In this document: piece after piece, positions 2,946-38,273 of the stretch
Position numbering within the stretch: the stretch's first letter is position 1
Layout: the number at the start of each line of letters is the position of its first letter
Made by a program: the position numbers and the translations under genes
Virus record (IMG/VR): IMGVR_UViG_3300035070_000531
Span: 1-40,621 of that record
Reading direction: 5' to 3' (one strand)
Length of the DNA: 40,621 nucleotides
Source: a virus
Notes under the pieces: model-generated
Database searches by the model: none
Seen by the model: the letters and a program-made list of their open reading frames with translations, nothing else
Told to the model about the DNA's origin: nothing

Positions 2946-3827
2946 ATGAGAGCGATACCACTAAAGAAGTTGGTCAAGCTATACTTACAGTCATCTGAGT
3001 TTAATCGCTTACGTGATCAAACAAAGTTAGACTACACTAGGTTCTTAAAGATATTGACAGACACGTTAGGTGAAACAACTGCCTCTGTTGTATCAGGTAA
3101 GGACGCAAGGATGGCGTATGAAGAATGGGTTACACGAGGCATACACCTAGCTAATCACGTGGCAGCAGTAGCTGGCATTGTGTATAGGCATGGTCAGGAT
3201 ATGGAGTACGTTAAGAATAATCCATTCACGCTAGTAAGGAAGCTATCACCTGTTGCACGTAACACAGTATGGACACAGGATCAGGTGCGTCAGTTTCTTG
3301 ATGTAGCCTATGGTGACTTTGTGTATCGTAATGTGGGACTGATAGTGCAGATGGCCTACGAATGGTGTCAGCGTGTGGGTGATATGCGTATGCTGACATG
3401 GGATAGTATTGACTTCAATACACGTAGACTAAAACTGCTACAGTCCAAGCGTGGTGCAGAGGTACAGCTACCTATATCAGATGAGTTACTTGAAATGCTT
3501 ACAGAACAACGTCAGGACTTTGACTTCCAGAAATATGTAGCACCTATGCCTACACCTTATGGTGGTGAGTACAAGCCATTCTCAATGGAACGATTGTCCA
3601 AGATAGGTAGGAAGATAATGCGACAGGCTAAACTGCCAGATGAATTACGCTTGATGGATCTTAGAAGAACTGGTACAACTGAAATGGTAGAGGCAGGTGT
3701 TCCACTGCCACAGATTATGTCAGTGACAGGTCATGCTAATCCACAATCGGTGAAGCCTTACATAAAGAATACTTATCTTAGTGCTAACAGTGCGCTGACT
3801 GCACGACAACAGTTTAAGGAGGAATGA
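2946..3827 (+). CDS. int: tyrosine recombinase / phage integrase
   Basis: A 293-residue protein with an N-terminal SAM-like arm (about residues 1-100, TKLDYTRFLKIL) and a catalytic domain. Catalytic positions seen are R143 in CQRVGDMRMLTW, K168 in SKRG, R240 in MDLRRTGTTEM, H263 in VTGHANPQ and the likely nucleophile Y272, nine residues after H263 as in lambda Int. In the HxxR box the usual His is Met (M237). The family cuts and rejoins DNA at att sites, so the phage may be temperate or descend from one. Neighbouring gaps are only 1-11 bases, so no att site lies beside the gene. Confidence 0.92.
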   Translation: MRAIPLKKLVKLYLQSSEFNRLRDQTKLDYTRFLKILTDTLGETTASVVSGKDARMAYEEWVTRGIHLANHVAAVAGIVYRHGQDMEYVKNNPFTLVRKLSPVARNTVWTQDQVRQFLDVAYGDFVYRNVGLIVQMAYEWCQRVGDMRMLTWDSIDFNTRRLKLLQSKRGAEVQLPISDELLEMLTEQRQDFDFQKYVAPMPTPYGGEYKPFSMERLSKIGRKIMRQAKLPDELRLMDLRRTGTTEMVEAGVPLPQIMSVTGHANPQSVKPYIKNTYLSANSALTARQQFKEE

Positions 3828-6535: not shown

Positions 6536-7222
6536 ATGGTTAATATATTCACACCTAAGAAGGATGCAGATGAGCAGATCTTCTTTCCATTTGGTCCTGT
6601 CATGGGCTACAAGAAACTAAGTCCTGAGTTTGTAAAGAACATGAATAGTTTCTATGAAGAAGAACCTAATCTACAAGACTATTCAGATAACTTAGTTGGT
6701 AAGGTAGGTCAGGAGCTACACTTCAGTGAAGCAATGAGAGACTTATTCCTTAATGAAGTCAAAGACTTTATAGGCAGGTATAATCAGACAGCTACTATAC
6801 GAAACTCATATGGTAGAAACAGATTAAATACAGATGCATTCGATTATAGTATGCAGTTTGTATCTGGTTGGTTAGTTAGACAATTTCAACATGAGTACAA
6901 TCCAGTGCATCTACATACAGGATGTCGTATGTCCTGTGTTGGGTATCTTAAACTGCCTGAAGGTATCGAGAAAGAATGGGAAGAGGACTACAAAGATCAT
7001 CATCCTTCTCATGGACACATACAGTTTATATCTGGTAGTGCAGGTAGCTACAGTGCTACAAACTTTATGGTAAGACCACAAGTAGGAGACTTCTATGTAT
7101 TCCCTAGTGAGTTGTTCCATTGTGTGTATCCTTTCTATACTAAAGGTGAGCGCAGATCATTTAGTTCTAACTTTAACTTCGTAGAAATTCCTAAAGGAGA
7201 GAAAAGTGAAACTGACTCTTGA
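6536..7222 (+). CDS. 2-oxoglutarate/Fe(II)-dependent oxygenase
   Basis: A 228-residue protein of the phage 2OG-Fe(II)_Oxy_5 type. Likely iron ligands are H125 and H127 in NPVHLHTGCRMSCVGYL and the distal H195 in VFPSELFHCVYPF; R206 or R207 in ERRSFSSNFNF would bind the 2-oxoglutarate carboxylate. The double-stranded beta-helix region spans about 105-217. The family oxidises diverse substrates and the target here cannot be told. Its place between helicase and polymerase hints at DNA or nucleotide modification, which is inference. It overlaps the polymerase start by 17 bases. Confidence 0.85.
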   Translation: MVNIFTPKKDADEQIFFPFGPVMGYKKLSPEFVKNMNSFYEEEPNLQDYSDNLVGKVGQELHFSEAMRDLFLNEVKDFIGRYNQTATIRNSYGRNRLNTDAFDYSMQFVSGWLVRQFQHEYNPVHLHTGCRMSCVGYLKLPEGIEKEWEEDYKDHHPSHGHIQFISGSAGSYSATNFMVRPQVGDFYVFPSELFHCVYPFYTKGERRSFSSNFNFVEIPKGEKSETDS

Positions 7223-9248
7223 TGTAGAAAACACAGTAATCAAACGTGAAGGTAAGCTACAGCTAGATCCTTTCGAGCCAGAGAACACACTTGTTATGGT
7301 GGGTATGCTTGATGATCAAGGCAATGAAGACATCGTTACGTTTGATCACAGTGAAGTAGAGGCTACTCCTAATGGTCATGCTATTGTACAGAGTAAGCTA
7401 GATCAAGCTACTGTACTGATTGGTCACAACATAGGCCATGACTTAGTGTGGCTATGGGAGTCAGGCTTTACCTACAATGGATCAGTGTTTGACACAATGA
7501 TGATGGAGTACCTAATACTACGTGGTGTCAAGCAACCTCTGTCATTGGAAGCATGTGCTCAACGCTACGATCTGGATACTAAGAAACAGGACACACTCAA
7601 GGCTTATCTCAAGCAGGGTGTATCAGTACGTGACGTACCACATGCTGAGTTATCTGAGTATCTAAGTGCTGACCTACATGCAACACAACAACTGGCACAT
7701 GAGTTACGTGTCAAGCTAGTGGGTACAGATGCTAGTGGTATGCACAATGTAGTGCAGCTAACTAATCAGATGGTTATTGCATTAGCTAAGATCTACACGA
7801 GAGGTTTTAACGTAGACATTACTGCACTGGAAGGTGTACGTATTGCATTTGAAGAAGAAAGAAAGGAGGTATTATCATACTTAGAAACTAAAGTAAGGGA
7901 ATTAATGGGGGATGTACCATTAAACTTAAGCAGTCCAGAGCAATTATCCACTCTGATATACAGTCGTAAGCCTGTAGATAAAACAGTCTGGATAAATAAG
8001 TTCGATCCATATATGGGGCAGACTGCTTTTAAACAACTTGTCAGGGAAGAAACTGACATAGTGTACAAGTCACATGTAAAGCGGTGTGCCGATTGCTATG
8101 GGTCAGGTAAAATAAGAAAGGAGAAAAAGGATGGAACACCATACGCCAAACTGTCAAAGTGCAACTCGTGCGATGGCAATGGGTATCATGTTATTCCTAC
8201 TAGTATTGTTGGTGGTTTAAAGTTTAATGCTCCCAATGCTAAGTGGGCTACAGCTAATGGGTTCTCTACTAACAGAAAGAACCTAGAGCTACTAGCAAAC
8301 TCAGCGAGAACTAAAGGCATGACTGATGCACTAGAGTTTCTTGAGAAGGTACAAAGGCTATCTGCATTGGATACTTATCTATCCTCATTCGTTGGTGGGA
8401 TAGCTAACAATGTGAAAGCTGATGGTAAGTTACACGTAAGACTGAACCAACACATGACATCTACTGGTAGGCTAAGTGGGAAAGAGCCTAACATGCAGAA
8501 CATGCCACGTGGTGGTACGTTCCCTGTCAAACGTGTATTTGTATCAAGGTTCAATGGAGGCAAGATACTTGAAGCTGACTTTGCACAGCTAGAGTTTCGA
8601 GTAGCTGCGTACCTATCTCAAGATCCTGTAGCTATCAGGGAAGTAACAGATGGTTTTGATGTGCATTCCTACACAGCCAAGATCATTACAGATGCTGGGC
8701 AGGTTATGTCCAGACAGGATGCCAAAGCACATACCTTTGCTCCTCTATATGGGGCTAGTGGATATGGTAGATCTAAAGCAGAAGCTACCTACTACACCCA
8801 CTTCAATGAGAAGTACAAAGGTATTGCTAACTGGCATGACACTCTTGCCAAAGAAGCACTTAACACAGGCAAGATTACAACACCATCAGGTAGGGAGTTT
8901 TCTTTCCCTGATGTACAGAGAAATGCACGTGGTAGGATCAGTTATTTTACACAGATCAAGAACTATCCTGTGCAATCATTTGCTACAGCAGATATTGTAC
9001 CTGTAGCATTACTATGGATAGAGACTTTATTGAAAGGTAAAAAGTCCTGTGTTGTCAATACAGTACATGATAGTATTGTTATTGACGTACATCCAGAAGA
9101 AGAAGAACAAGTCTTAACAGCTATCGAAGATTGTAATACCAATTTAGATACATGTATTAAACAACATCTAGGTGTTGATATTAATGTACCTTTATTATTA
9201 GAATCTAAAATAGGTAATAATTGGCTTGACATTAAGGACGTTGCGTAG
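7206..9248 (+). CDS. polA: family A DNA polymerase with DnaJ-like zinc insertion
   Basis: A 680-residue replicative polymerase. The 3'-5' exonuclease has D6 and E8 (TLDVENT), D79 (HNIGHD) and D156 (YLSAD). The polymerase has motif A LEADFAQLEFR (D458), motif B SRQDAKAHTFAPLYG (R503, K507, F511, Y515) and motif C VNTVHDSIV (H621, D622). F511 aligns with E. coli Phe762. Between the domains are two DnaJ-type knuckles, C294xxC297xGxG and C319xxC322xGxG, a hallmark of HMO-2011-type phages. GTG at 7206 is chosen because AAAGGAGAG lies upstream and the exonuclease motif begins at once. Confidence 0.96.
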   Translation: MKLTLDVENTVIKREGKLQLDPFEPENTLVMVGMLDDQGNEDIVTFDHSEVEATPNGHAIVQSKLDQATVLIGHNIGHDLVWLWESGFTYNGSVFDTMMMEYLILRGVKQPLSLEACAQRYDLDTKKQDTLKAYLKQGVSVRDVPHAELSEYLSADLHATQQLAHELRVKLVGTDASGMHNVVQLTNQMVIALAKIYTRGFNVDITALEGVRIAFEEERKEVLSYLETKVRELMGDVPLNLSSPEQLSTLIYSRKPVDKTVWINKFDPYMGQTAFKQLVREETDIVYKSHVKRCADCYGSGKIRKEKKDGTPYAKLSKCNSCDGNGYHVIPTSIVGGLKFNAPNAKWATANGFSTNRKNLELLANSARTKGMTDALEFLEKVQRLSALDTYLSSFVGGIANNVKADGKLHVRLNQHMTSTGRLSGKEPNMQNMPRGGTFPVKRVFVSRFNGGKILEADFAQLEFRVAAYLSQDPVAIREVTDGFDVHSYTAKIITDAGQVMSRQDAKAHTFAPLYGASGYGRSKAEATYYTHFNEKYKGIANWHDTLAKEALNTGKITTPSGREFSFPDVQRNARGRISYFTQIKNYPVQSFATADIVPVALLWIETLLKGKKSCVVNTVHDSIVIDVHPEEEEQVLTAIEDCNTNLDTCIKQHLGVDINVPLLLESKIGNNWLDIKDVA

Positions 9249-12677: not shown

Positions 12678-14636
12678 ATGCACACAAATAATTATTTAAG
12701 TTCTGACTACCAAAATTTTATTGCGCTATCACGCTATGCCAGATGGAGAGAAGGTGATCAGAGGCGTGAAGGTTGGCTTGAGACAGTAGAGAGATACTTC
12801 AACTATCTTGAGAACTACGTAAAAGATAAGTATGGTTACACGATGCCTGATGATATACACAAGAAACTATCTAGTGCAGTACAGGATTTAAATGTTATGC
12901 CAAGTATGAGAGCATTGATGACAGCAGGAGCACCATTGGATATATGCCACGTGCCTAGCTACAACTGTTCATACATGACAGTAGATACGCCAAGAGTATT
13001 TGATGAATGCATGTACATACTTATGTGTGGTACAGGTGTTGGCTTCTCTGTTGAGAGACAGTACACAGATAAGCTACCCATAGTTAATGAAGAACTACAT
13101 CATTCAGATACAGTAATTAAAGTAGGAGACTCACGTGTTGGATGGTCAAAGTCTCTCAAAGAATTACTAGCTATGTTATACTCTGGTCAGATACCTACAT
13201 GGGATGTCAGTGCAGTACGTCCTGCTGGTGCTAGGCTAAAGACCTTTGGTGGTCGGGCATCTGGTCCTGCACCACTAGAAGATCTGTTTAACTTCTGCAT
13301 TGAGAAGTTTAAAGGTGCAGTAGGACGTAGACTAACACCATTAGAGTGCCATGACATCATGTGTAAGATAGGTGAGGTGGTGGTAGTAGGTGGTGTAAGA
13401 CGTAGTGCACTGATCAGCCTGTCAGATATTGATGACGATCAGATGCGCCATGCTAAATCAGGACAGTGGTGGGAGAATGAAGGACAGAGAGCACTAGCTA
13501 ACAACAGTGTAGCTTATAGCACTAAGCCTGACATGGGAACATTCATGCGAGAATGGACATCACTGTACGAAAGTCAATCTGGTGAGCGTGGTATATTCAA
13601 CAGGCAGTCAGCAGTTAAACAGGTTAAAAAAACAGGTAGAAGACAATCTTTAAAAAGTTGGACAAATGAACCATATCTGTTTGGTTGTAACCCATGCTCT
13701 GAGATTATACTAAGACCATTTCAGTTCTGTAACCTATCGGAAGTAGTAGCACGTAATACTGATACACTTAAAACACTTAAAGAGAAAGTAAAGTTAGCTA
13801 CTATACTAGGTACATTACAATCTACACTTACTGACTTTAGATATTTACGTAAGATATGGAAGACTAATACTGAGGAAGAAAGGTTGTTAGGTGTATCTCT
13901 TACAGGTATCATGGACTGTCCATTGTTAAATGGTAAGCAACAGAGAAACAATCTTCCTAAAGTATTAGAGGAACTAAAGAAAGTAGCTATAGATACCAAC
14001 AAAAAAATAGCAAAGGCAATAGGTATCAACATGTCAGTAGCTATTACATGTGTTAAGCCATCAGGTACTGTATCACAGCTAGTAGATAGTGCCAGTGGCA
14101 TTCATGCAAGGCATAGTCCATACTACATCAGGACAGTACGTGCTGATAACAAAGACCCTATGACACAGTTCATGGTTGATATGGGTATACCTAATGAGCC
14201 TGACGTTACTAAGCCTTTAGACACTACAGTGTTTAGCTTTCCTACTATTGCACCAATAGGGGCTGTGACACGTAATGACATGACAGCAATAGAGCAGTTA
14301 AATCTGTGGCTAACATATCAAACACACTGGTGTGAACACAAACCATCTGTTACAATATCGGTTAAGCAGAACGAATGGATGGAAGTAGGAGCATGGGTGT
14401 ATGAGAACTTTGATGATCTATCAGGCATTAGCTTCCTACCTTACAGCGAGCATGTGTATAAGCAAGCTCCCTACCAAGAGGTAGATAAGTCTACATGCAT
14501 GGAGATGGTTAAGCGTATGCCAAGCAGAATAGATTGGAGTAAGCTATCCGACTATGAAAAGGAAGATGGCACATCAGGAGGCAGGGAACTAGCCTGTTCA
14601 GCAGGGGTGTGTGAAGTTGTTGATTTAACTACATAA
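12678..14636 (+). CDS. class II (B12-dependent) ribonucleotide reductase, monomeric RTPR type
   Basis: A 652-residue enzyme that makes deoxyribonucleotides using adenosylcobalamin. The active-site cysteine pair is C97 (SYNCSYM) and C351 (FCNLSEV). The thiyl loop is N338-P-C340-S-E342 (GCNPCSEI). The C-terminal shuttle pair is C640 and C645 (ACSAGVCEV). Other marks are MCGTGVGFSVER (116-127), VVGGVRRSALIS (237-248) and KPSGTVSQL. It is somewhat shorter than the Lactobacillus enzyme, and no separate small subunit is needed or present. The host must make or import cobalamin. It supplies dNTPs for phage replication. Confidence 0.95.
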   Translation: MHTNNYLSSDYQNFIALSRYARWREGDQRREGWLETVERYFNYLENYVKDKYGYTMPDDIHKKLSSAVQDLNVMPSMRALMTAGAPLDICHVPSYNCSYMTVDTPRVFDECMYILMCGTGVGFSVERQYTDKLPIVNEELHHSDTVIKVGDSRVGWSKSLKELLAMLYSGQIPTWDVSAVRPAGARLKTFGGRASGPAPLEDLFNFCIEKFKGAVGRRLTPLECHDIMCKIGEVVVVGGVRRSALISLSDIDDDQMRHAKSGQWWENEGQRALANNSVAYSTKPDMGTFMREWTSLYESQSGERGIFNRQSAVKQVKKTGRRQSLKSWTNEPYLFGCNPCSEIILRPFQFCNLSEVVARNTDTLKTLKEKVKLATILGTLQSTLTDFRYLRKIWKTNTEEERLLGVSLTGIMDCPLLNGKQQRNNLPKVLEELKKVAIDTNKKIAKAIGINMSVAITCVKPSGTVSQLVDSASGIHARHSPYYIRTVRADNKDPMTQFMVDMGIPNEPDVTKPLDTTVFSFPTIAPIGAVTRNDMTAIEQLNLWLTYQTHWCEHKPSVTISVKQNEWMEVGAWVYENFDDLSGISFLPYSEHVYKQAPYQEVDKSTCMEMVKRMPSRIDWSKLSDYEKEDGTSGGRELACSAGVCEVVDLTT

Positions 14637-24999: not shown

Positions 25000-26448
25000 T
25001 TAACCTTTCACAATTAATTCTGTTGCAGATATTGCAGTTCCAGCCACAACACTAGGACTATCTGCACTCGTTCCTAACGTGCCATCAGTCTGTACATAAT
25101 ATGTCTGACCTGCTGTTAGTGATGTTTGATCTTTGTTTACTGTGCCAACTACGTCTATTGTAGCTTCTGCTGTATCAGCGTAAGTACCACCAGATGCTAT
25201 GCCTATGTAGTTTTCTGTTGTTAGGTTTGTTGGTACAGATGTTGAAAATGTTTGAGCCTTACCATAACCAGTATTACTTTGATCACTATATGCAACAATT
25301 AATTTATTGTTTGTTGTATCTTCAACAAGAGCAAATCTTGTACTATAACTAGTTACGTGAGTTGCCTCACTTCCAAAAGTAATACCAGTACCAGATACTG
25401 TTCCTTCAATGTATTGACCATCAGTTGCACCAGCATCATAATAAAATATAACAACTTTTCCAGAGGTACTGTCAAACCCAATATCAATTCCATCATCTCC
25501 TGCTGTACTAGAACTGTTAAAAACTACAGCCGTACCAAATGAGATACTAGTTCCTGATACAGTTCCTACAATAGCAGTTCCATAGCTACTATTTCCATTA
25601 TCTTCATATGCTATAACAACTTTATTATTAGTACTATCAAAAGTTATGGCTGTACGTCTAGTATCTGCATTTTCAAACAAAACTTCTGAACCAAAACTTA
25701 TAGATGTTCCAGATACAGTACCTACAGCAGCTCTGCCTTTAGTGTCTCCATAATCTAAGTACGCAACAACAACTTTGTTATTTGAACTGTCAAATGTAAT
25801 ATCTATGTAGGCATTAGAAGCAGTATTAAATACTGCATCTGAACCGAAACTAATTCCTGTTCCTGATACAGTACCAACATTAGCAGTTCCTTTATTTGAA
25901 TCACTTTGATCCCTATAAACAACAACAACTTTATTACTGTTAGTATCAAAAGTTAAAGCATTATAATAACTTATACCACTATTAAATACAACTTCAGATC
26001 CAAAACTAATACTATTATCACTGGAATCAATTGTACCTACAATAGCAGTACCGTAATTAGAATTACCAGCATCTCTATACACTATAACTGTTTTGTTATT
26101 TGAACTGTCAAATGTAATATCTATGTCAGCAGTCTCACTGCTATTATAAACTACAGGGGTTCCAAAACTTATTGATGAACCTGACACAGTTCCTACAACT
26201 GCTGTACCATAGTCACTAGCATTTGAATATGTTATAACAATTCTTTGTAAATTACTATCATAGGCAATAGAATTGCGTTGTGTGTTTCCATTTTCAAATG
26301 TAGCTGCTGTACCTAATGATGCAGCAGACTCACTAATCTGTGTAACCGTACCAGTACTATTAACAATTACAGGCTTACCATTTGTAATCGCACCAGATGC
26401 AACAGCTTTATATTTACCTGCTTGTTTCGGGGGAACGTATGCTACCAT
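25000..26448 (-). CDS. seven-repeat predicted beta-propeller virion protein
   Basis: A 482-residue protein. Residues 17-36 form a cap (ASGAITNGKPVIVNSTGTV). Residues 45-405 hold seven repeats of about 51 residues, each with a FGTxVVFNS start, FDSxNNKVVIAYRD in the middle and GTAIVGTVSGTxI at the end. Residues 412-482 form a cap with TENYIGIAS and GQTYYVQTDGTLGTSA, ending ATELIVKG. Seven copies of a four-strand-sized unit suggest a seven-bladed propeller. It is probably a tail appendage or receptor-binding component. It is a paralog of the two genes upstream. No enzyme motif is seen. Confidence 0.75.
   Translation of the reverse strand: MVAYVPPKQAGKYKAVASGAITNGKPVIVNSTGTVTQISESAASLGTAATFENGNTQRNSIAYDSNLQRIVITYSNASDYGTAVVGTVSGSSISFGTPVVYNSSETADIDITFDSSNNKTVIVYRDAGNSNYGTAIVGTIDSSDNSISFGSEVVFNSGISYYNALTFDTNSNKVVVVYRDQSDSNKGTANVGTVSGTGISFGSDAVFNTASNAYIDITFDSSNNKVVVAYLDYGDTKGRAAVGTVSGTSISFGSEVLFENADTRRTAITFDSTNNKVVIAYEDNGNSSYGTAIVGTVSGTSISFGTAVVFNSSSTAGDDGIDIGFDSTSGKVVIFYYDAGATDGQYIEGTVSGTGITFGSEATHVTSYSTRFALVEDTTNNKLIVAYSDQSNTGYGKAQTFSTSVPTNLTTENYIGIASGGTYADTAEATIDVVGTVNKDQTSLTAGQTYYVQTDGTLGTSADSPSVVAGTAISATELIVKG
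25234..26316 (-). repeat. seven tandem about 51-residue repeats (propeller 1)
   Basis: Coding repeat array inside the 482-residue protein. The seven units are recognised by the recurring FDSxNNKVVI and GTVSGTxISFG signatures. DNA copies are imperfect, so they are old relative to each other. Boundaries are approximate. Confidence 0.75.
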
Positions 26449-26451
26449 GTC

Positions 26452-27927
26452 TTACCCTTTCACAATCAGTTTAGTTGCAGTTACAGCAGTACCAGCTACG
26501 ACTGAAGGATCATCTGCTGATGTACTTAGCGTACCATCATTCTGTACAAAATACTGTTGGGCTGGTGTTAAGCTACTCTGGTTTTCATCGATAGCACCTT
26601 TAGTATTTATCGTAACAGGTTGTCCATCTGCTACTGTATCTTGTGCAAAGCCTATGAAGTTTTCTGAGGTTAAAGCATTTGAAGTGGCAGTTCCTCCTAT
26701 TTGAAAAACTATAGCGTTTCCTATATTTGATTCACCAGTATCCCTATATGCAACAACAACTTTATTATTTGTTGAATCAAATGCTGAAGCACTTGGATAC
26801 ATTCTAGTATAACCACTATTAAATGTAGTTGAAGATCCAAAACTAATACTATTGTCTGAAGGATCTACTGTGCCTACTATTAATTTGCCATCACTTGAGT
26901 CACTTTGATCTCTATGCATTATGGCTACTTTATTTACGTTAGAGTCAAATGTTATTGTTGTCTGACCATTTGTTCCTGAGTTATAAGCTACAGCAGTACC
27001 GAATGATATAGTTGTACCCGAAACAGTTCCCACAATAGCTGTTCCATAATTTGAATTATTACCATCCTTGTAAGAAATTACTATTCTATTAGAATTACTA
27101 TCAAATGCCATTGTTAAATTTGCTCCATCACCAGTATCTATACCAACAGCCGTACCAAAGCTAATTCCTGTACCTGACACAGTACCTACAACTGCTTTAG
27201 GTTTATTTCCATCTCCACCATCTGCATATGCAATAACAACTTTTCCATTACTAGAATCAAAATCAAGAGTTATAGCACCAGCTTCTGCGCTTTCAAATAC
27301 AGCAGCTGTACCAAATGAAATTCCAGTCCCAGAAACTGTTCCTACAATAGCTGTTCCATAAAAAGAATTACCATCATCTCTATATGCTATAACAACTTTA
27401 TTATTAGTAGAATCAAAAGTTATATTATTATGTGTTGTTGCTGCACTTTCGTAAACAACTGGTGTACCAAATGAGATACTAGTATCTGACACAGTAGCTA
27501 CAACAGCGGTTCCATAACTAGAATTTCCTTGATCAACATAAGAAATTACTACTTTATTTGAGTTACTATCAAATGCGGCTGCTACATATGCTACAGCAGC
27601 ACTTTCAAATATAGCAGCAGAACCAAATGAGATACTAGTTCCAGAAACTGTACCAACTATGGCAGTGCCATAATCACTGTTAGCATCGTCTTCATATGCA
27701 ATAACAATTTTACCAGCATTAGAATCAAAAACAGTAGAGGTATAAGCTGTTAGGGCATTTTCAAAAGTAACTTGAGAACCTACACTTTGTGTTACAGTTG
27801 ATTCAGCAGTTGTACTACCAACAGTACCATCAGTATTCACAATTACAGGCTTACCTCCAGTAATAGCACCAGATGCTGTACCTTGTGTCTGCCTAGATAG
27901 TTGTGGGTTATTACCAACGATACGCAT
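26452..27927 (-). CDS. seven-repeat predicted beta-propeller virion protein (paralog)
   Basis: A 491-residue paralog of the preceding gene product with the same plan: an N-terminal cap (ASGAITGGKPVIVNTDGTV, 18-36), seven blade-like repeats at about 48-411, and the C-terminal TENFIG cap with QQYFVQNDGTLSTSADD ending ATKLIVKG. Blade centres vary most at the positions before FDS (for example TAYTSTV, TTHNNIT, TRMYPSAS), which would form loops on one face. It likely decorates the tail or forms a fiber tip. The separation of only three bases from its paralog suggests tandem duplication. Confidence 0.75.
   Translation of the reverse strand: MRIVGNNPQLSRQTQGTASGAITGGKPVIVNTDGTVGSTTAESTVTQSVGSQVTFENALTAYTSTVFDSNAGKIVIAYEDDANSDYGTAIVGTVSGTSISFGSAAIFESAAVAYVAAAFDSNSNKVVISYVDQGNSSYGTAVVATVSDTSISFGTPVVYESAATTHNNITFDSTNNKVVIAYRDDGNSFYGTAIVGTVSGTGISFGTAAVFESAEAGAITLDFDSSNGKVVIAYADGGDGNKPKAVVGTVSGTGISFGTAVGIDTGDGANLTMAFDSNSNRIVISYKDGNNSNYGTAIVGTVSGTTISFGTAVAYNSGTNGQTTITFDSNVNKVAIMHRDQSDSSDGKLIVGTVDPSDNSISFGSSTTFNSGYTRMYPSASAFDSTNNKVVVAYRDTGESNIGNAIVFQIGGTATSNALTSENFIGFAQDTVADGQPVTINTKGAIDENQSSLTPAQQYFVQNDGTLSTSADDPSVVAGTAVTATKLIVKG
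26695..27786 (-). repeat. seven tandem about 52-residue repeats (propeller 2)
   Basis: Repeat array in the 491-residue protein, again seven units with the FDSxxNKVVI and GTVSGTxISFG signatures. Boundaries are approximate. Confidence 0.75.
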
Positions 27928-27935
27928 AGTAATCC

Positions 27936-28193
27936 TTACTCAGCGTTAGGATCTACCCAATTGGGATTGTTAGTCCAATTGGTTCCATCAAAGAAGTGTT
28001 TGTTACCTGACCAACCATCAGGTGCTGTAACATCTTCATGCATTGTTGCATTGCTACTATTTAAATCAGCAATATAGAAATCTACTGGATCACTACCTAC
28101 TGTGATCATGTCAGATCCCATTGTTACTGGTTTATCATCAGCGAATACATATTTACTTAATTTAGTTGAGTTTTCTACGATTGTCTTAGCCAT
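27936..28193 (-). CDS. small virion-associated protein
   Basis: An 85-residue protein (MAKTIVENSTKLSKYVFADD, then DFYIADLNSSNATMHEDV, then a Trp-rich C-terminus with FFDGTNWTNNPNWVD). Similar small proteins with an N-terminal MAKxIVE and a FADD segment accompany tail fiber genes in marine phages, from memory. The function is unknown; a fiber-associated or assembly role is plausible from its position between two propeller genes. Confidence 0.65.
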   Translation of the reverse strand: MAKTIVENSTKLSKYVFADDKPVTMGSDMITVGSDPVDFYIADLNSSNATMHEDVTAPDGWSGNKHFFDGTNWTNNPNWVDPNAE

Positions 28194-28199
28194 GTGTGT

Positions 28200-30791
28200 T
28201 TATCCTTTCACAATTAATTCACTAGCACCTATTGCAGTTCCTGCGATTACTGATGGATCATCTGCGCTAGTATCCAATGTTCCATCTGTTTGTACGAAAT
28301 ATTGTTGTCCTATGGTGAGATCTTCTGGTGTTCCAGCAAGAGATAGTACAATACCTTTACCTTTATTACTGTCACCATTATCTCTATAGAAAATAACACC
28401 TCTGTTTTCATTGCTGTCAAATGTAGTTGATGCATACAGAGTAACTGCTTCATTAAAAGTTACAGCAGTTCCATAACTAATAGATGTACCAGATACTGTG
28501 CCTACAATATATTTTCCATAATCATTGTCTGCATCATCATAGTAAGAAACAATTACTTTATTATTTGAGTTATCAAATGCAGTTGATATATCTTCTGTGT
28601 CAGCAGCTTCAAATACAACAGCAGATCCAAAACTAATTCCAGTACCACTCACCGTTCCTATAACAGATGTACCATAATTACTATTACCAGCATCCTGATA
28701 CACAATAACTACTTTATTATTTAAACTGTCAAAAGTTATATTTATATTTCTGACACCAGCAGACTCAAATACAGCTGCTGTTCCAAAACTTATATCTGTT
28801 CCTGATATTGTGCCGACAATAGCTGTACCATAGCCACTGTTACCATCATCTCTATATACAACGACTACTTTATTGTTACTGTTATCAAATGCACATCTAA
28901 TATCTTGAGTGTCTGCACTCTCAAAAGTTACTTCTGTACCAAAAGTTATATCTGTGCCTGATACAGTGCCTACCCTTGCTTTTCCATGTCCTCCTTCTGA
29001 GTATTTATCTCTATAAACTATTGCTACTTTGTTACTGTTAGTGTCAAAAGTGGTTGCATTCATGGCAACACCTAAAGAAGAGTCATATGTAGCAGGAGTA
29101 CCAAAACTAATTGAGTTATCAGATGAATCTATAGTTCCTACAATAGCTTTACCAGTTTCACCAGAACTTTGATGAGTATATACAATAACAACTTTATTAT
29201 TACTGCTATCAAAAGTTATGCCATATCCATTAGTATTTGAACTTTCAATAATAGTTGGAGTACCAAATGTAATAGTTGAACCACTTACTGAACCGACACA
29301 AACAGTTCCATAATTACTATTACCAGCATCCTGATATACAACTACTACTCTATTGTTAAAGCTATCAAATGTCGCTACTGTACCTCTACTTCCTTCGCCA
29401 ACTGTATCACTTTCAAAGACTACTGCTGTTCCAAGTGAGTCAGAAGCAGATGCAACTTGCGGTATGTTCCTAGCAATCGATCCAGTAGTTTTTACAGTAG
29501 CTTTTTGTCCATCTGCATATGCTGCGTTGGCTATGCCTATGAAGTTTTCGGTTGTTAAAGTTGTCGGTTGAGCATTCTGTAGTATTCTTGCAGTGCCATC
29601 ATCTCCATCACCTGCATCTTTATATGATATAACAACTCGCTCTGCATTACTGTCATAACCTAAACCAATATACTCTGTATTAGTATTAAACGTAGCAGGA
29701 GTAGTAAAACTAATTGATCTACTTGCACCAACGGTTCCTACAACATATGTACCTGCATTACTGTTACCAACATCCCTATATGCTATAACTACTTTCCCTA
29801 CAGAAGCATCAAACACTGCATCAATGTATTGATTATCAGCAGATTCAAAAACTACAGGTGTGCCAAGACCACTAATCTCTGTATTATTTACGTTACCTAC
29901 TACTGCTGTACCATAGCTACTATTACTGTTATCGTGATATGCCATCACAACTACTTGATTAGTGCTGTCGTATGCTAAACCTATATAATCACCACCAGTA
30001 ACAGATACTCGTATCTCACTACCAATACTTATAGATGTTCCTGATACAGTACCTACACACATACTAGGATTATAACTTTGACCTAAATCAATATAGCCAA
30101 AAACAACTCTTTGTTCATCGCTATCATAAACACAACGAGGATGTGCAGTATTAGCATTATTAAATACAACAGGAGTTCCAAATGATATAGATGTACCGCT
30201 TACTGTTGCTACAACAGCAGTGCCATGACCACTGTTACCAAAGTCAGTATAACTGATAACAACTTTGTTAGTGCTACTATCAAAACAAGCATCTATATAT
30301 ACAGCGTTGTTAGTCGTAAAAGTAGCTTCCGACCCAAAACTGATGCTGTTATCGCTAGGGTCTACAGCGCCAACTACTGCCTTACCTTTGTTACTATCTG
30401 TCGTATCTCTGTAAGCTATAACAATTTTGTTAGAGTTTGAATCAAAAGCTATACCATAAAATTCTGCTTCACCTGATGAATCAAAAGCAACAGTAGTTCC
30501 AAATGTTACAGATGTACCACTTACTGAACCAACGGTTGCTGTTCCATTACTATTACTTCCATTTTTATGTGCAATAACAATTCTATTACTATTACTATCA
30601 AATGCCACACGATTGTAGTTAGATGCGTCACTTGAATATTCTGTTTCAGATCCTAAAGTTAAAGATATAGCATCAGTGACACCACTAACTGTACCAGTAG
30701 AGTTTACAATAACAGGTTCACCATCAGTTATTGCACCACTAGCAATAGCTCGTACTTCAGCATCTAAAGCTATGTCACCAACAAATCTCAT
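28200..30791 (-). CDS. double seven-repeat predicted beta-propeller virion protein
   Basis: An 863-residue protein: cap (ASGAITDGEPVIVNSTGTV, 18-36), seven blade-like repeats at about 45-405, a middle cap (TENFIGIANAAYADGQ, about 409-424), seven more repeats at about 450-815, and a C-terminal cap (QQYFVQTDGTLDTSADD, ending ASELIVKG). It reads as two copies of the single-propeller plan joined end to end, with the TENFIG segment missing before the last cap. No catalytic motif is seen. A receptor-binding or adhesive tail protein is the most likely role, by context. Confidence 0.75.
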   Translation of the reverse strand: MRFVGDIALDAEVRAIASGAITDGEPVIVNSTGTVSGVTDAISLTLGSETEYSSDASNYNRVAFDSNSNRIVIAHKNGSNSNGTATVGSVSGTSVTFGTTVAFDSSGEAEFYGIAFDSNSNKIVIAYRDTTDSNKGKAVVGAVDPSDNSISFGSEATFTTNNAVYIDACFDSSTNKVVISYTDFGNSGHGTAVVATVSGTSISFGTPVVFNNANTAHPRCVYDSDEQRVVFGYIDLGQSYNPSMCVGTVSGTSISIGSEIRVSVTGGDYIGLAYDSTNQVVVMAYHDNSNSSYGTAVVGNVNNTEISGLGTPVVFESADNQYIDAVFDASVGKVVIAYRDVGNSNAGTYVVGTVGASRSISFTTPATFNTNTEYIGLGYDSNAERVVISYKDAGDGDDGTARILQNAQPTTLTTENFIGIANAAYADGQKATVKTTGSIARNIPQVASASDSLGTAVVFESDTVGEGSRGTVATFDSFNNRVVVVYQDAGNSNYGTVCVGSVSGSTITFGTPTIIESSNTNGYGITFDSSNNKVVIVYTHQSSGETGKAIVGTIDSSDNSISFGTPATYDSSLGVAMNATTFDTNSNKVAIVYRDKYSEGGHGKARVGTVSGTDITFGTEVTFESADTQDIRCAFDNSNNKVVVVYRDDGNSGYGTAIVGTISGTDISFGTAAVFESAGVRNINITFDSLNNKVVIVYQDAGNSNYGTSVIGTVSGTGISFGSAVVFEAADTEDISTAFDNSNNKVIVSYYDDADNDYGKYIVGTVSGTSISYGTAVTFNEAVTLYASTTFDSNENRGVIFYRDNGDSNKGKGIVLSLAGTPEDLTIGQQYFVQTDGTLDTSADDPSVIAGTAIGASELIVKG
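28330..30660 (-). repeat. two arrays of seven blade repeats (propellers 3 and 4)
   Basis: Fourteen units of about 52 residues in two sets of seven, divided by the middle cap. Units of the second set tend to resemble each other more (VVFESAxTxxI...FDxSNNKVVIVY). Boundaries are approximate. Confidence 0.75.
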
Positions 30792-30799
30792 TTAAGTTC

Positions 30800-31174
30800 C
30801 TATGAAAGTTCTTCGTATGTAACTGTGTATGTTAAATCGTTAGCTGCACTTGCAGTAACACCAAGAGACTTATCTTCTTCTAAGTATAGCCCTTGGTTCT
30901 TATCTATAATAACTACAAATGAGTCTGCTGGTACTGCTATAGTAGAAGCAATAACTACTGCTGTTCCTGCTAGATCGTCTTGAGGGTATATCGCTACAGT
31001 TACAGTAGCTGAGTTTGTACCATCTACGTTAGATATAATGAGGCTGTTTATTTTCATTACCTTACCAGATGATGCAGGATTATTTACAGCATTGACTGCT
31101 GAAGTTCCTGTTAGTAATGCAGTTGCTGTCTTTGCAGTAATGGTTGCTACATTGACAATATTAGGTGCTGCCAT
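30800..31174 (-). CDS. small beta-rich virion protein
   Basis: A 124-residue protein starting MAAPNIVNVATITAKTATA, with strands such as KINSLIISNVDG and ATVTVAIYPQDD and an IAVPADSFVVIIDKN segment. This pattern is common in structural proteins of marine phages near tail fiber genes. It is predicted to be a beta-sandwich and so could be a fiber-base or decoration protein; the precise role is unknown. AGGA lies upstream of the start. Confidence 0.65.
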   Translation of the reverse strand: MAAPNIVNVATITAKTATALLTGTSAVNAVNNPASSGKVMKINSLIISNVDGTNSATVTVAIYPQDDLAGTAVVIASTIAVPADSFVVIIDKNQGLYLEEDKSLGVTASAANDLTYTVTYEELS

Positions 31175-31314: not shown

Positions 31315-33867
31315 CTATCCAAATACCATCGCCATAGCGATAGCTTTACCTGTAGATGCTTTTGCATCTAATTGAGTTTGTATTGCACTAGTTACTCCTG
31401 CTACATGATTTAGTTGAGCAGCAGTTGCGGTTACATTAGTACCACCAATATCTAGAGTAGTCATAGAAACTTCTCCAGCAACAGTAAGAACACCATTAGC
31501 TAATGTCATTAAATCGGTATCATCTGTGTGACCTATAGTTGTACCATTAATTAATACGTTGTCAATATCTAAAGACCCACCTGATATAAGACCAGTAGTT
31601 GTAATAGTAGAAGATCCATTATCTATGTTACCAAAACCAGAAGTTATAGAACCTGCATTTAGTGCTCCAGTTGTAACTATGTTAGTACCACCAACAGAGT
31701 GACTAGCAAAGTATGTAGATACGGTATCAACATTAGTCATACGCATTGTACCACCATCATTAATAAGTATGCCATCACCACTTGCTACTGCTGTTGTACC
31801 TCTAGCTGTATCACCATCAATTAAATTTAATTCAGCACCTGTAGCTGTTATAGCTGTACCTGCATAGTTTAAATTACCAGCTGCTATATTTACTTCACCT
31901 GTACCTTTAGGTGTAATATCTATATCTATATTTGAATCTGAACCAAATGCACCTACAACAATAGCATCACCTGTTGCAGAGTTAGTAACTTCAAGAGCAT
32001 TAACAGCAGAACCTGTAGTTTGAAATACTACCTGTTCATTACCATTTGCATCAGCAATAAAACCAGCATCAGCAAACTTAGGAGCAGTAAGTGTTTTATT
32101 TGTAAGTGTAGTTGTTGAACTAGCAGTAACAGCAGATGTCATTGAGTTATCTACATATGCTTTAATAGATTGTTGTGTAGCTAGTTTAGTTGCAGAGTTA
32201 GAAGCTAAGTTATCTTCATCAAGAACTGCTGTACCACTAACACCTGTATTAAGTACTGGGCTAGTAAGAGTTTTGTTTGTAAGTGTTTGTGTAGCTGTAT
32301 CACCAACTAAATTAGAAGTAGTAGCTGGTAGAGTTAGTGTAACATTGCCAGAGAAAGCACTGTGAGCAGGAGCATTAATTGCTGCATAGTGGGCGTTAGA
32401 AGATTCACAATAAAAACGTATAGAAGATACAGAACCACCATTCTTAAGATCTATCAAACCACTTTCTATACCTACATTACCATCTAGTACAACCTGACCT
32501 GTTCCTTTAGGTGTTAGCTTAAGACTAATGTTTGAGTCACCACCTGTAGCTGATACCTCTGGTGGATTACCTGTAGCAGCATTAGTAATGTCTAGCTGGT
32601 TGACTGCTGTAGCTGTTTTTTGAAATATAATAAACTCATTACCACTATCATCGTTAATACCATGTGCATCATCAAATGCTATATTAAAAGAGTTAGTATC
32701 AAGGTCAGCACCTAACTGTGGAGAACTATCATCTACAACATTAGATATAGCAGAAGATGTAGCAAGACCAGATACCACAGCACTTCTAGCTATTTTCTTA
32801 AGACCACCACCTGAAGTATCTATAGCAAGAAATACATCATCGTCAGCTACTGTAGATATTTCACTTAGAGCAGTAACAGCAGTAGGATTAAAGTTTGTGC
32901 CATCAGCTATAAGCAACATACCAGAAGTATTTGTAGCCATAGTTAAGTCATCACCTGATATGGTTAAGTCACCAGCAACAGTAACATTAGCACCTGACAT
33001 CGTAAGTGCAGTAGTTGACCCTGACTTAATTATAAGATCACCAGAGCTATTAGTTAAAGCACCATACTGTGTGCCATCATCTTTTAATAGTACATCTGCA
33101 CCATTTGCATCAAGTACAACATCACCTGCTGTGTCAATAATTAAATCACCTGTATCATTCACTATGTAAGAATTAGTACCACCATGATATAAGTTTAGAT
33201 CCTCACCCGCACCTAATGTAAGTCTACCAGTAGCACTATCCCCTGTAAGATCATCTGCATCAGCGTCTACATCTATTTTTAACAAACCACCTGACGTTAT
33301 GTTAGATGCACCATTATCAATGTTACCAAAGCCAGAAGTTATGCTACCAGAATCTAGTGCACCTACAGTTGTTAAACTTGCACCTGTATCAATATTAGAT
33401 TCAACCCACGTTTCCAAATCAGCAAACGTAAGCTGTTTCATTGTACCACCGTCATTTATAATAAACTGATCTGAGGTTGCTATAGTTACACCAGTAGAAG
33501 CAGATGTGTCACCATCTACAATATTAAGTTCAGCAGCAGTAGAAGCAATAGCTGTACCATTAAAGTTAATAGCATCTATGTAAGCAACACCATCAATATA
33601 CAAATCTTTAAACTCTGCACCACTAGAACCTAAATCAAATGCATCATCAGTAGATGGTGTAATACTAGTTGCTGCTATGGTAAGCTGTTGTGCTGGTCCT
33701 AGTTTAGTTATTGCCCCACCTTCTGCTGCTGTACCATCATGGGTATGTCCTGATGTACTAAAGGCAGTTACGATAGCATCAAACTCTCCATCAAAGTCAG
33801 AGGCATTAATAATATTACCATCAGCAATATTGTTAGCAGTATCGTTACGTGTATATCCTGTTCCCAT
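31315..33867 (-). CDS. tail fiber protein
   Basis: An 850-residue fiber. The N-terminus (GYTRNDTANNIADGNIINAS, then GHTHDGTAAEGG at 40-51) is the marine podovirus fiber head that joins the tail. The shaft has repeated LTNKTLTSP/LTNKTLTAP units, AxELNxxDGD units and INDGGTM segments. The end (GKAIAMAMVFG) is typical of marine phage fibers and no self-cleaving chaperone domain is seen. A stretch of about 95 residues is duplicated (near 103-196 and 667-761). It likely binds host receptors, together with the propeller proteins downstream. Confidence 0.85.
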   Translation of the reverse strand: MGTGYTRNDTANNIADGNIINASDFDGEFDAIVTAFSTSGHTHDGTAAEGGAITKLGPAQQLTIAATSITPSTDDAFDLGSSGAEFKDLYIDGVAYIDAINFNGTAIASTAAELNIVDGDTSASTGVTIATSDQFIINDGGTMKQLTFADLETWVESNIDTGASLTTVGALDSGSITSGFGNIDNGASNITSGGLLKIDVDADADDLTGDSATGRLTLGAGEDLNLYHGGTNSYIVNDTGDLIIDTAGDVVLDANGADVLLKDDGTQYGALTNSSGDLIIKSGSTTALTMSGANVTVAGDLTISGDDLTMATNTSGMLLIADGTNFNPTAVTALSEISTVADDDVFLAIDTSGGGLKKIARSAVVSGLATSSAISNVVDDSSPQLGADLDTNSFNIAFDDAHGINDDSGNEFIIFQKTATAVNQLDITNAATGNPPEVSATGGDSNISLKLTPKGTGQVVLDGNVGIESGLIDLKNGGSVSSIRFYCESSNAHYAAINAPAHSAFSGNVTLTLPATTSNLVGDTATQTLTNKTLTSPVLNTGVSGTAVLDEDNLASNSATKLATQQSIKAYVDNSMTSAVTASSTTTLTNKTLTAPKFADAGFIADANGNEQVVFQTTGSAVNALEVTNSATGDAIVVGAFGSDSNIDIDITPKGTGEVNIAAGNLNYAGTAITATGAELNLIDGDTARGTTAVASGDGILINDGGTMRMTNVDTVSTYFASHSVGGTNIVTTGALNAGSITSGFGNIDNGSSTITTTGLISGGSLDIDNVLINGTTIGHTDDTDLMTLANGVLTVAGEVSMTTLDIGGTNVTATAAQLNHVAGVTSAIQTQLDAKASTGKAIAMAMVFG

Positions 33868-37185: not shown

Positions 37186-38244
37186 TTATACCAAGCAATA
37201 ACGTGCAACACTTAGAGCTTCAGGTCTAAGTATCTTACGTCCATACAAATGCATTCCCCGAACTATGTCGGCAAAGCTATCAGGGTCACGATATGTCTCT
37301 GTCTTATTAATCTGCTCGGCAGTTGCTACAGCAGAAGAATGTCCAGATACAATCATACCAAAGTTAGAGGAGTTTGTACCACCAGTAGTAGATGGGCCAG
37401 TTCCAATAGAAGGTAGGTTGTTAGACATATATACTTTGAAACCATGAAGGTTATTAAGTATAAGACCATTTTGTATTCCGCTTCCACCAAAGTCACCATT
37501 GAGAAGACGAGAATCTTCATCTTTGAGAACTTCAACGAAAACTGGATCAACGACAAGCCAACGATTGTTGGTGTCAACATTTTGCTGATCAAGCAAACGA
37601 GCCATACGAGCTACAATTTGTAATGGATTAGCATTACCTGAACCGGGTGTAGCAGAAGTTGCCCCACCAGCACGTGCCTGAATACCAATTGCGTTACTGG
37701 AAGAACCACCAAACTGAGAAGCATCTATCTTCATTGAGCTTAGTAATTCGTCAGTACCTGCTGTAGATACAGCAACTGAACCATTAACAGTTGTGTTAGC
37801 AGTATCAGCATTGGTATGCAAAGAAGACTGTTTGAAACCAGTCAAGTAACCAAGAGCGTCTTGGTCAAACTGGTCAGCTAGTCTGTAAGCCGCACGATCA
37901 GTTGCAAGCTGTTGGAAGTTGATGTGAGAATGTGCCTCTTCAATATCATCGACTTTAAATGCAAAGTAGTTTGCTTTGTCAATGGTAAGAGAGAACTCTT
38001 CATCATCCAAGTCTTGCGGAGTAATCGTAGTACCACGAGCATATGCTTTGACCGTGATTTCTGGCTCCTTAATTATTTTAACGCTATCGCCCATGTTTGC
38101 GATTTCGCCAAAGTAGTCACTATTTGTAATAGCTTCAACAATAGAAGCCTTACGAAAAGCTACTTGTACCTGCTTAGAGTAGATAATTGGTGAAAAATTA
38201 CCATTAGGCAGGTTGCCGTAGCCTGTTGCAGTTGAAAATGCCAT
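37186..38244 (-). CDS. major capsid protein
   Basis: A 352-residue protein. The N-terminal part has KQVQVAFRKASIVEAITN and GDSVKIIKEPEITVKAY, and the middle has DDIEEAHSHINFQQLATDR, typical of HK97-fold podovirus coat proteins of marine phages; the end has MHLYGRKILRPEALSVARY. It follows the scaffold gene. ATG at 38244 is chosen since AGGAGAAAATAAA lies directly upstream; an in-frame ATG at 38268 would place that ribosome site inside the gene. Transcribed from the promoter at 38445-38472. Confidence 0.88.
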   Translation of the reverse strand: MAFSTATGYGNLPNGNFSPIIYSKQVQVAFRKASIVEAITNSDYFGEIANMGDSVKIIKEPEITVKAYARGTTITPQDLDDEEFSLTIDKANYFAFKVDDIEEAHSHINFQQLATDRAAYRLADQFDQDALGYLTGFKQSSLHTNADTANTTVNGSVAVSTAGTDELLSSMKIDASQFGGSSSNAIGIQARAGGATSATPGSGNANPLQIVARMARLLDQQNVDTNNRWLVVDPVFVEVLKDEDSRLLNGDFGGSGIQNGLILNNLHGFKVYMSNNLPSIGTGPSTTGGTNSSNFGMIVSGHSSAVATAEQINKTETYRDPDSFADIVRGMHLYGRKILRPEALSVARYCLV

Positions 38245-38273
38245 TTTATTTTCTCCTATATACGACATCCCAT

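Follow-up and report, generated by a model that had tools for sequence, protein, structure and literature searches.

The window analysed here, 40,621 nucleotides of the IMG/VR virus record IMGVR_UViG_3300035070_000531, derives from a marine phage with three neighbouring propeller genes that together encode four propellers. These genes, their parts and the adjoining ORFs are located on the minus strand, and they specify single-propeller proteins of 482 (25000..26448) and 491 residues (26452..27927), as well as an 863-residue double-propeller protein (28200..30791). An 85-residue companion ORF lies directly downstream of the 863-residue gene (27936..28193), a 124-residue ORF immediately upstream of it (30800..31174), and a tail-fibre-like ORF of 850 residues further upstream (31315..33867). 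No accepted match to the three proteins was obtained using the Pfam curated cut-off or PHROGs, a PDB sequence search with the 491-residue protein returned chance-level matches only (antibody light chains, E values of at least 0.08), and the propeller proteins had no sequence match to known phage-receptor families. PF18050 exceeds its cut-off over the whole 482-residue protein (E 3.5e-8) but passes in no single stretch, and this hit was rejected as a sum of weak repeat matches. The propeller-cap family is common in virus contigs (one query of IMG/VR yielded 130 relatives, and 213 stretches encode the cap), but it is represented neither in Pfam nor in PHROGs nor among families of solved structure.

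The original prediction held that the three proteins contain sets of exactly seven repeats (7, 7 and 7+7), each of about 51 residues, flanked by shared cap modules. This description proved accurate, as motif and HMM counts place 7 units in the 482-residue protein, 7 in the 491-residue protein and 14 in the 863-residue protein, where one 96-residue gap divides them into 7+7; the period is 51-56 residues (mostly 52), and a cap HMM recovers the flanking modules. A strict regular expression skips the first blade of the 482-residue protein (residue 63), which the blade HMM recovers. The 863-residue protein matches this HMM, which was made from the proteins' own units, with an E value of 3.4e-274; together with the presence of the same units in independent relatives, this value excludes a repeat match by chance. 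Among 80 related IMG/VR loci, nearly all complete ORFs contain either 7 (133 ORFs) or 14 blades (28 ORFs). The remaining counts are 6, 13, 5, 9 and 3, and most of these ORFs show at least one gap of about 100 residues, corresponding to divergent blades that escape the HMM. Insert lengths support the seven-blade quantum independently of the HMM counts, as 222 of 229 inserts between the first two cap segments span 350-399 residues and none falls within the six-blade range of 300-349.

Structure prediction, proposed earlier as a check, gave a confident four-stranded propeller for the 491-residue protein (AlphaFold AF2; pLDDT 94.6, pTM 0.87). The model contains seven repeats of about four strands each, and seven-bladed lectins of Photorhabdus are among the top PDB matches to its fold, with a target-normalised TM of up to 0.77. 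The blade sequence register opens with the last strand in a velcro pattern, and the matched lectins are closed seven-bladed rings. In the model of the 863-residue protein each propeller is well modelled, the overall pTM is only 0.49 and the cap is poor (pLDDT about 40-70); a PDB fold search with this model produced only low-TM multi-propeller matches, since it is uncertain how its domains are placed relative to one another. The expectation of seven-bladed propellers, 28 blades in total, therefore holds at the level of sequence in all three proteins and in a confident model of one, with a less confident model of the 863-residue protein, and the assigned fold is well supported by sequence. The closest solved fold is that of the PLL, PLL2, PLL3 and PHL lectins, which contain seven four-stranded blades with many sugar sites between them and Trp stacking (PMC6943638). 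These bacterial lectins, for which no cap module is reported, share about 13% sequence identity over the aligned part, and their sugar-site tryptophans have no counterpart here, as the 482-, 491- and 863-residue proteins contain no Trp. Sialidases are also among the fold matches, which would suit glycosidase, sialidase or lyase-like enzymes that degrade surface polysaccharide. Such an activity is very unlikely, as the Asp-box motif is absent from all three proteins and seen in only 8 of 259 propellers of relatives, the three proteins lack tryptophan, and the conserved blade columns (D, G, T, S and F) are structural, which is what a scaffold would show.

The caps are three segments (A, B and C) of one module of ~118 residues, which also stands alone in cap-only genes of 118-122 residues in relatives L104, L118 and L107. 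Cap coordinates were taken from the cap HMM and blastn blocks; a multiple alignment misplaces part of segment A in the cap-only proteins. Insertion sites are referred to as port 1 (between A and B) and port 2 (between B and C). In the 491-residue protein, segment A (27814..27882) is followed by the seven-bladed propeller (26683..27813) and by contiguous segments B and C (26455..26679), leaving port 2 empty. The 482-residue protein likewise contains segment A (26338..26406), a propeller stretch delimited by blastn (25224..26318) and segments B and C (25003..25230), the latter placed by the cap HMM and segment identities. The 863-residue protein is arranged as segment A (residues 15-37; 30681..30749), a seven-bladed propeller 1 in port 1 (29568..30680), segment B (about residues 410-440; 29472..29567), a seven-bladed propeller 2 in port 2 (28326..29471) and segment C (28203..28325). 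Because its cap is poorly modelled, A, B and C are grouped into a single putative holder on the basis of sequence. The original prediction had described this protein as two fused single-propeller units, a view that accords with its two rings and with a turn region in segment B that by eye resembles segment A. However, if two single-propeller genes had simply been joined, B-C-A would be expected in mid-protein and a second B before C, whereas each cap segment occurs just once, with only B in the middle, only C at the end and propeller 2 occupying the gap between them. Port 2 is, moreover, empty in most relatives, is filled by another type of repeat domain in two (L007 and L033), and carries a propeller in some orthologues of the 491-residue slot but not in others, making a fusion origin highly unlikely. 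The split two-port holder appears to be undescribed in the literature searched.

Comparison with related phages and metagenomes, also suggested in the original prediction, revealed the same holders carrying different whole propellers or none. Pairwise segment identities were used in preference to an ungapped junction step profile, which drops at both borders but slips in register outside them. In orthologues of the 482-residue slot, amino acid identity is 82-95% for the N-terminus plus A (N+A), 89-100% for B and 89-100% for C, and 40-57% for the propeller; N+A is 89-94% identical in orthologues of the 863-residue slot. Over 13,203 pairs, N+A identity correlates with B+C identity (Spearman 0.54) and hardly with that of the intervening propeller (0.12). 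The 124-residue upstream ORF is 95-98% identical across relatives with differing propellers. Most of the relatives are metagenome contigs, and a join within their conserved cap DNA could stem from misassembly. This reading is disfavoured by the finding of the same pairings of cap and propeller in more than one sample and by an exact empty site in L104, where the flanks of the 482-residue protein's propeller abut (L104:2737|2738, blastn), although single cases may be such errors. The metagenomic origin of the relatives, and the conserved DNA that bounds each variable stretch on both sides, would also fit propellers that diverge in place by rapid substitution, with exchange simulated by fast evolution and assembly error. 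We consider this highly unlikely given the empty site and the following observations. Caps that are 90-100% identical hold propellers of only ~43% identity, a value that stays flat whatever the cap identity, while propellers 91-98% identical are found in unlike caps, and 7 of 32 multi-member propeller clusters (at least 85% identity) span different cap types or ports. These clusters include propeller 1 of the 863-residue protein, which is 91% identical in amino acids, and 88.5% in nucleotides over 1,255 nt, to the propeller of a differently capped gene (L061:9410-10876). The best matches of propeller 2 are located in port 1 of L100 (74%) and port 2 of L067, L003 and L061 (71%). In addition, propeller dN/dS is 0.24 overall, indicative of purifying selection. 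Exchange of propellers as whole cassettes is thus well supported by sequence. Blade-by-blade recombination was rejected, as no pair of propellers is a mosaic with two windows of at least 90% and two of at most 58% identity.

Constraint is distributed unevenly within the propellers. Constraint is weakest in the D-A and B-C inter-strand connections, which should share one face (dN/dS 0.38 and 0.30, respectively), and strongest in the A-B turn (0.11). Positive selection on the propeller loops was not found, as dN/dS is below 1 in all classes and the loops show relaxed constraint. Blades are 43.2% identical within a protein, 42.6% at the same position between proteins and 41.4% at different positions; being almost without position memory, they do not reveal the order of ancestral duplications.

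The genomic surroundings suggest a function at the tail. The 850-residue upstream ORF is 38% identical over 409 residues to CRP-345 gp50, a 'putative tail fiber protein', and the 85-residue companion ORF is related to the N-terminal region of gp48 from Lentibacter phage ICBM2, a protein with a Phage_tail_APC (tail assembly chaperone) domain as its C-terminal region. In L004, L046, L062, L066, L077, L078 and L091, the propeller-cap module makes up the C-terminal region of a protein that resembles a tail fibre. Core genes identify CRP-345 and HMO-2011 as the closest relatives in culture, and the stretches of these phages that were compared match neither blades nor cap. The proteins could alternatively decorate the capsid or tail, binding glycans, particles or mucus-like matter in the environment with no role in host range; a genome with four propellers would favour avidity, and the fold is similar to that of lectins with several weak-affinity sites. 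Yet the propeller genes are located in the tail-fibre region and not beside the coat gene (37186-38268), their fusion partners are fibre-like N-terminal parts, a chaperone-related ORF adjoins them, and receptor matching better accounts for propellers that vary as whole cassettes while the caps stay constant; we therefore consider mere decoration unlikely. A role as adhesins that may extend or switch receptor range, as originally proposed, becomes more likely in view of the tail-fibre-like fusions, the adjacent chaperone-related gene and the exchange of whole propellers.

We favour, as a likely explanation, tail-associated adhesins in which a conserved holder with two ports has its receptor head exchanged by recombination through cap DNA. 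The holder (about 118 residues alone) would offer two loops as ports, with port 1 holding one closed seven-bladed propeller and port 2 optionally a second domain, which in the 863-residue protein is a second propeller. As both ends of a closed ring lie side by side, a propeller could be inserted into a loop without breaking the holder, which would be a simple structural reason for the strict sets of seven and for whole-domain exchange. The conserved cap DNA that flanks each propeller probably provides homology arms, through which co-infecting relatives would swap whole propellers by homologous recombination. The proteins combine a conserved part with an exchangeable one, to which we assign presumptive roles in virion attachment and recognition, respectively; exchange would alter the head that binds a cell-surface, probably glycan, receptor, and may thereby affect host range. 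More tentatively, and with somewhat less than even confidence, the family may constitute a dedicated display system, in which marine phages draw whole propellers, and now and then other domains, from a common pool, inserting and removing them and moving them among genes and ports, with holder DNA also providing the arms for recombination that resets receptor choice. Should the propellers be receptor heads, up to four recognition modules could be read from each genome, clustered and linked to hosts, and predictions of the hosts of uncultured marine phages would become testable.

Phage receptor-binding proteins with propellers are already known, as is the shuffling of tail fibres. Propellers likewise occur in the host-recognition or baseplate-periphery proteins phi11 Gp45 and PRD1 P2, which differ from the present units in having five blades, and in PhiKZ gp131C, which has seven; in the available part of that source, none is reported in a split exchangeable holder (PMC4901313). 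In the Gp38 adhesins of T-even phages the frame is likewise conserved and the receptor tip carries hypervariable segments (PMC12529663), but these are short and lie between glycine-rich motifs, whereas here a folded domain of ~370 residues is swapped whole. Recent exchange of receptor-binding domains has been described for tail fibres (Smug et al. 2023, PMC10684548), and under-recruiting host-recognition genes form metaviromic islands in marine phages (Mizuno et al. 2014, PMC3909814); neither text mentions propellers, and the two-port holder and seven-blade quantum are, relative to those systems, specific to the propeller-cap family. Among the cultured phages in the collection, only Lentibacter phage vB_LenP_ICBM2 has a weak match to the 863-residue protein, namely gp49 (AYP28108.1, 'hypothetical protein'). 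This protein ranks fourth in the viral fold search, is about 28% identical over part of its length and has fewer recognisable blades (4 by HMM); unlike the 863-residue protein it is fused to a fibre-like N-terminus, and an assembly chaperone gene lies directly downstream.

The three propeller genes of the window, all on the minus strand, encode proteins of 482 (positions 25000-26448), 491 (26452-27927) and 863 residues (28200-30791). A motif scan and an HMM made from the 28 units agree that they contain 7, 7 and 14 (7+7) blades, respectively, usually repeating every 52 residues, as anticipated by the original prediction of seven units in every set. Querying IMG/VR with the 491-residue protein yielded 130 relatives, and 80 loci were retained (L-numbers below denote contigs of relatives). 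In complete ORFs of the relatives, the blade HMM finds 7 blades in 133 and 14 in 28, while the remainder mostly contain at least one gap of ~100 residues, which is a divergent blade unseen by the HMM. Independently of this HMM, the insert between cap segments A and B measures 350-399 residues in 222 of 229 cases; no six-bladed members fit, because inserts of 300-349 residues never occur (0/229).

Structure prediction supports the proposed propeller fold. The AlphaFold2 model of the 491-residue protein (86 sequences) is a confident four-stranded propeller (pLDDT 94.6, pTM 0.87), almost entirely beta with ~4 strands per unit. Its sequence opens with a strand of the unit-ending type, which the final unit lacks; this strand offset is the usual means of propeller ring closure. 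For the 863-residue protein (22 sequences) each ring is modeled well (~90), with poorly modeled caps and domain arrangement (overall pTM 0.49). Sialidases, WD40 propellers and Photorhabdus seven-bladed lectins rank highest when the 491-residue model is compared with the PDB using Foldseek, and the lectins give the best target-normalised TM-scores (up to 0.77). By their respective membership criteria, the window proteins belong neither to the PLL lectins nor to the Asp-box propellers. According to PMC4901313, phage receptor-binding or baseplate-periphery proteins with propellers include those of phi11 and PRD1 P2 (five blades each) and PhiKZ gp131C (seven blades, of unconfirmed function).

To define the caps, separate HMMs were used for segments A (N-terminal), B (right behind propeller 1) and C (C-terminal), and all three segments are present in 237 ORFs. 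In four of the loci (L104, L118, L107 and L127, the last at a contig edge), an ORF carries A, B and C contiguously and insert-free, in proteins of ~118-122 residues; at the sequence level, the caps are therefore parts of one holder of ~118 residues, not separate modules. The A-B gap (port 1) holds a propeller in nearly all ORFs. The B-C gap (port 2) is empty in 203 of the 237, accommodates a second propeller (350-424 residues) in 30 others, and in L007:1617-3869 and L033:146-2410 houses a domain of another repeat type (264-276 residues, ~270 aa; 'GIAFNxDGTKMY' repeats). In the 863-residue protein, both ports of a holder are accordingly occupied, and the earlier idea of two fused single-propeller units is not supported. 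A cupredoxin-like stretch (His/Cys/Met pattern, by eye) lies inside segment B in L025:9437-11242 and L055:10586-12412; a Pfam search of the L025 protein gave no cupredoxin match.

Whole propeller domains have been exchanged among relatives, as judged from sequence comparisons. In a set of 211 non-redundant proteins, propeller identity has a median of 40-44% at any cap identity, and of 43.5% even where caps are 90-100% identical. In 13,203 pairs of 163 single-propeller proteins, identity of the N-terminus plus A correlates with that of B+C (0.54), whereas propeller identity barely tracks either flank (0.12 and 0.09). Slot orthologues, matched to individual window genes by cap identity, share 82-97% over the N-terminus plus A, 82-100% over B and 38-57% over the port-1 propeller, and small neighbouring ORFs on their contigs are 91-99% identical in the closest set. 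Conversely, propellers 91-98% identical reside within caps sharing just 49-62%, and among 32 propeller clusters with more than one member, 7 occur in different cap types or ports; propeller 1 of the 863-residue protein shares 91% identity (88.5% at the nucleotide level, over 1,255 nt) with that of a different-slot gene in L061. Relatives being mostly metagenome contigs, individual joins may be chimeric. The 863-residue gene matches L003 at 89% nt through the end of A and at 79% nt from the start of B, with no co-linear match listed over propeller 1, and in the L104 orthologue of the 482-residue gene the propeller flanks directly abut (bases 2737 and 2738), a natural empty site. A search of protein pairs for blade-level mosaics found none. 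Within propellers dN/dS is 0.24, with the A-B turn most constrained (0.11) and the D-A (0.38) and B-C (0.30) connections loosest; by the usual geometry of propellers, the latter two share one face of a four-stranded blade. Exchange and constraint together argue that propeller diversity arises by swapping within a large constrained pool, not by hypermutation. Receptor-binding domain shuffling in phages (PMC10684548) and hypervariable host-recognition islands of marine phages (PMC3909814) are already known; in the open-access literature we found no account of the propeller-cap family, the split two-port holder or whole-propeller exchange.

The window is a virus record of 40,621 bases, and its structural genes, on the minus strand, resemble those of HMO-2011-type podoviruses, with 79-80% identity to Roseobacter phage CRP-345 and Puniceispirillum phage HMO-2011 for the coat protein and 34-61% for tail structure proteins. 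A tail-fibre-like ORF (31315-33867, minus) and a 124-residue ORF (30800-31174, minus) lie upstream of the propeller ORFs. In L004, L046, L062, L066, L077, L078 and the single-cell marine virus AG-345-O18, the propeller-holder unit forms the C-terminal portion of long proteins whose N-terminal regions are fibre-like. Many relatives also have, next to propeller genes, the 85-residue ORF that follows the 863-residue gene (27936-28193, minus); it shares 35% identity with the N-terminal portion of gp48 of Lentibacter phage vB_LenP_ICBM2, a protein whose C-terminal portion belongs to a tail assembly chaperone family (PF16778). The three proteins are probably located on the phage tail, where their rings may bind surface receptors, most likely glycans; co-infecting relatives could recombine through cap DNA and swap the ring, and host preference would change with it.

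Elsewhere in the window, this phage with HMO-2011-type structural genes encodes a tyrosine integrase (2946-3827, plus; PF00589, E 1.4e-21), a family A DNA polymerase (7206-9248, plus) containing a weak DnaJ CXXCXGXG zinc motif match under the curated cut-off, a B12-dependent-type ribonucleotide reductase (12678-14636, plus) and a 2OG-Fe(II) oxygenase (6536-7222, plus). Propeller-cap relatives also occur in bacterial genome contigs (L174 and L177; Pseudomaricurvus and Neptuniibacter assemblies), possibly as prophages, and a contig filed under a Euryarchaeota genome carries a 2,353-residue ORF (L171:5451-12509) with several propeller-holder units per chain and a cupredoxin-like N-terminal stretch.
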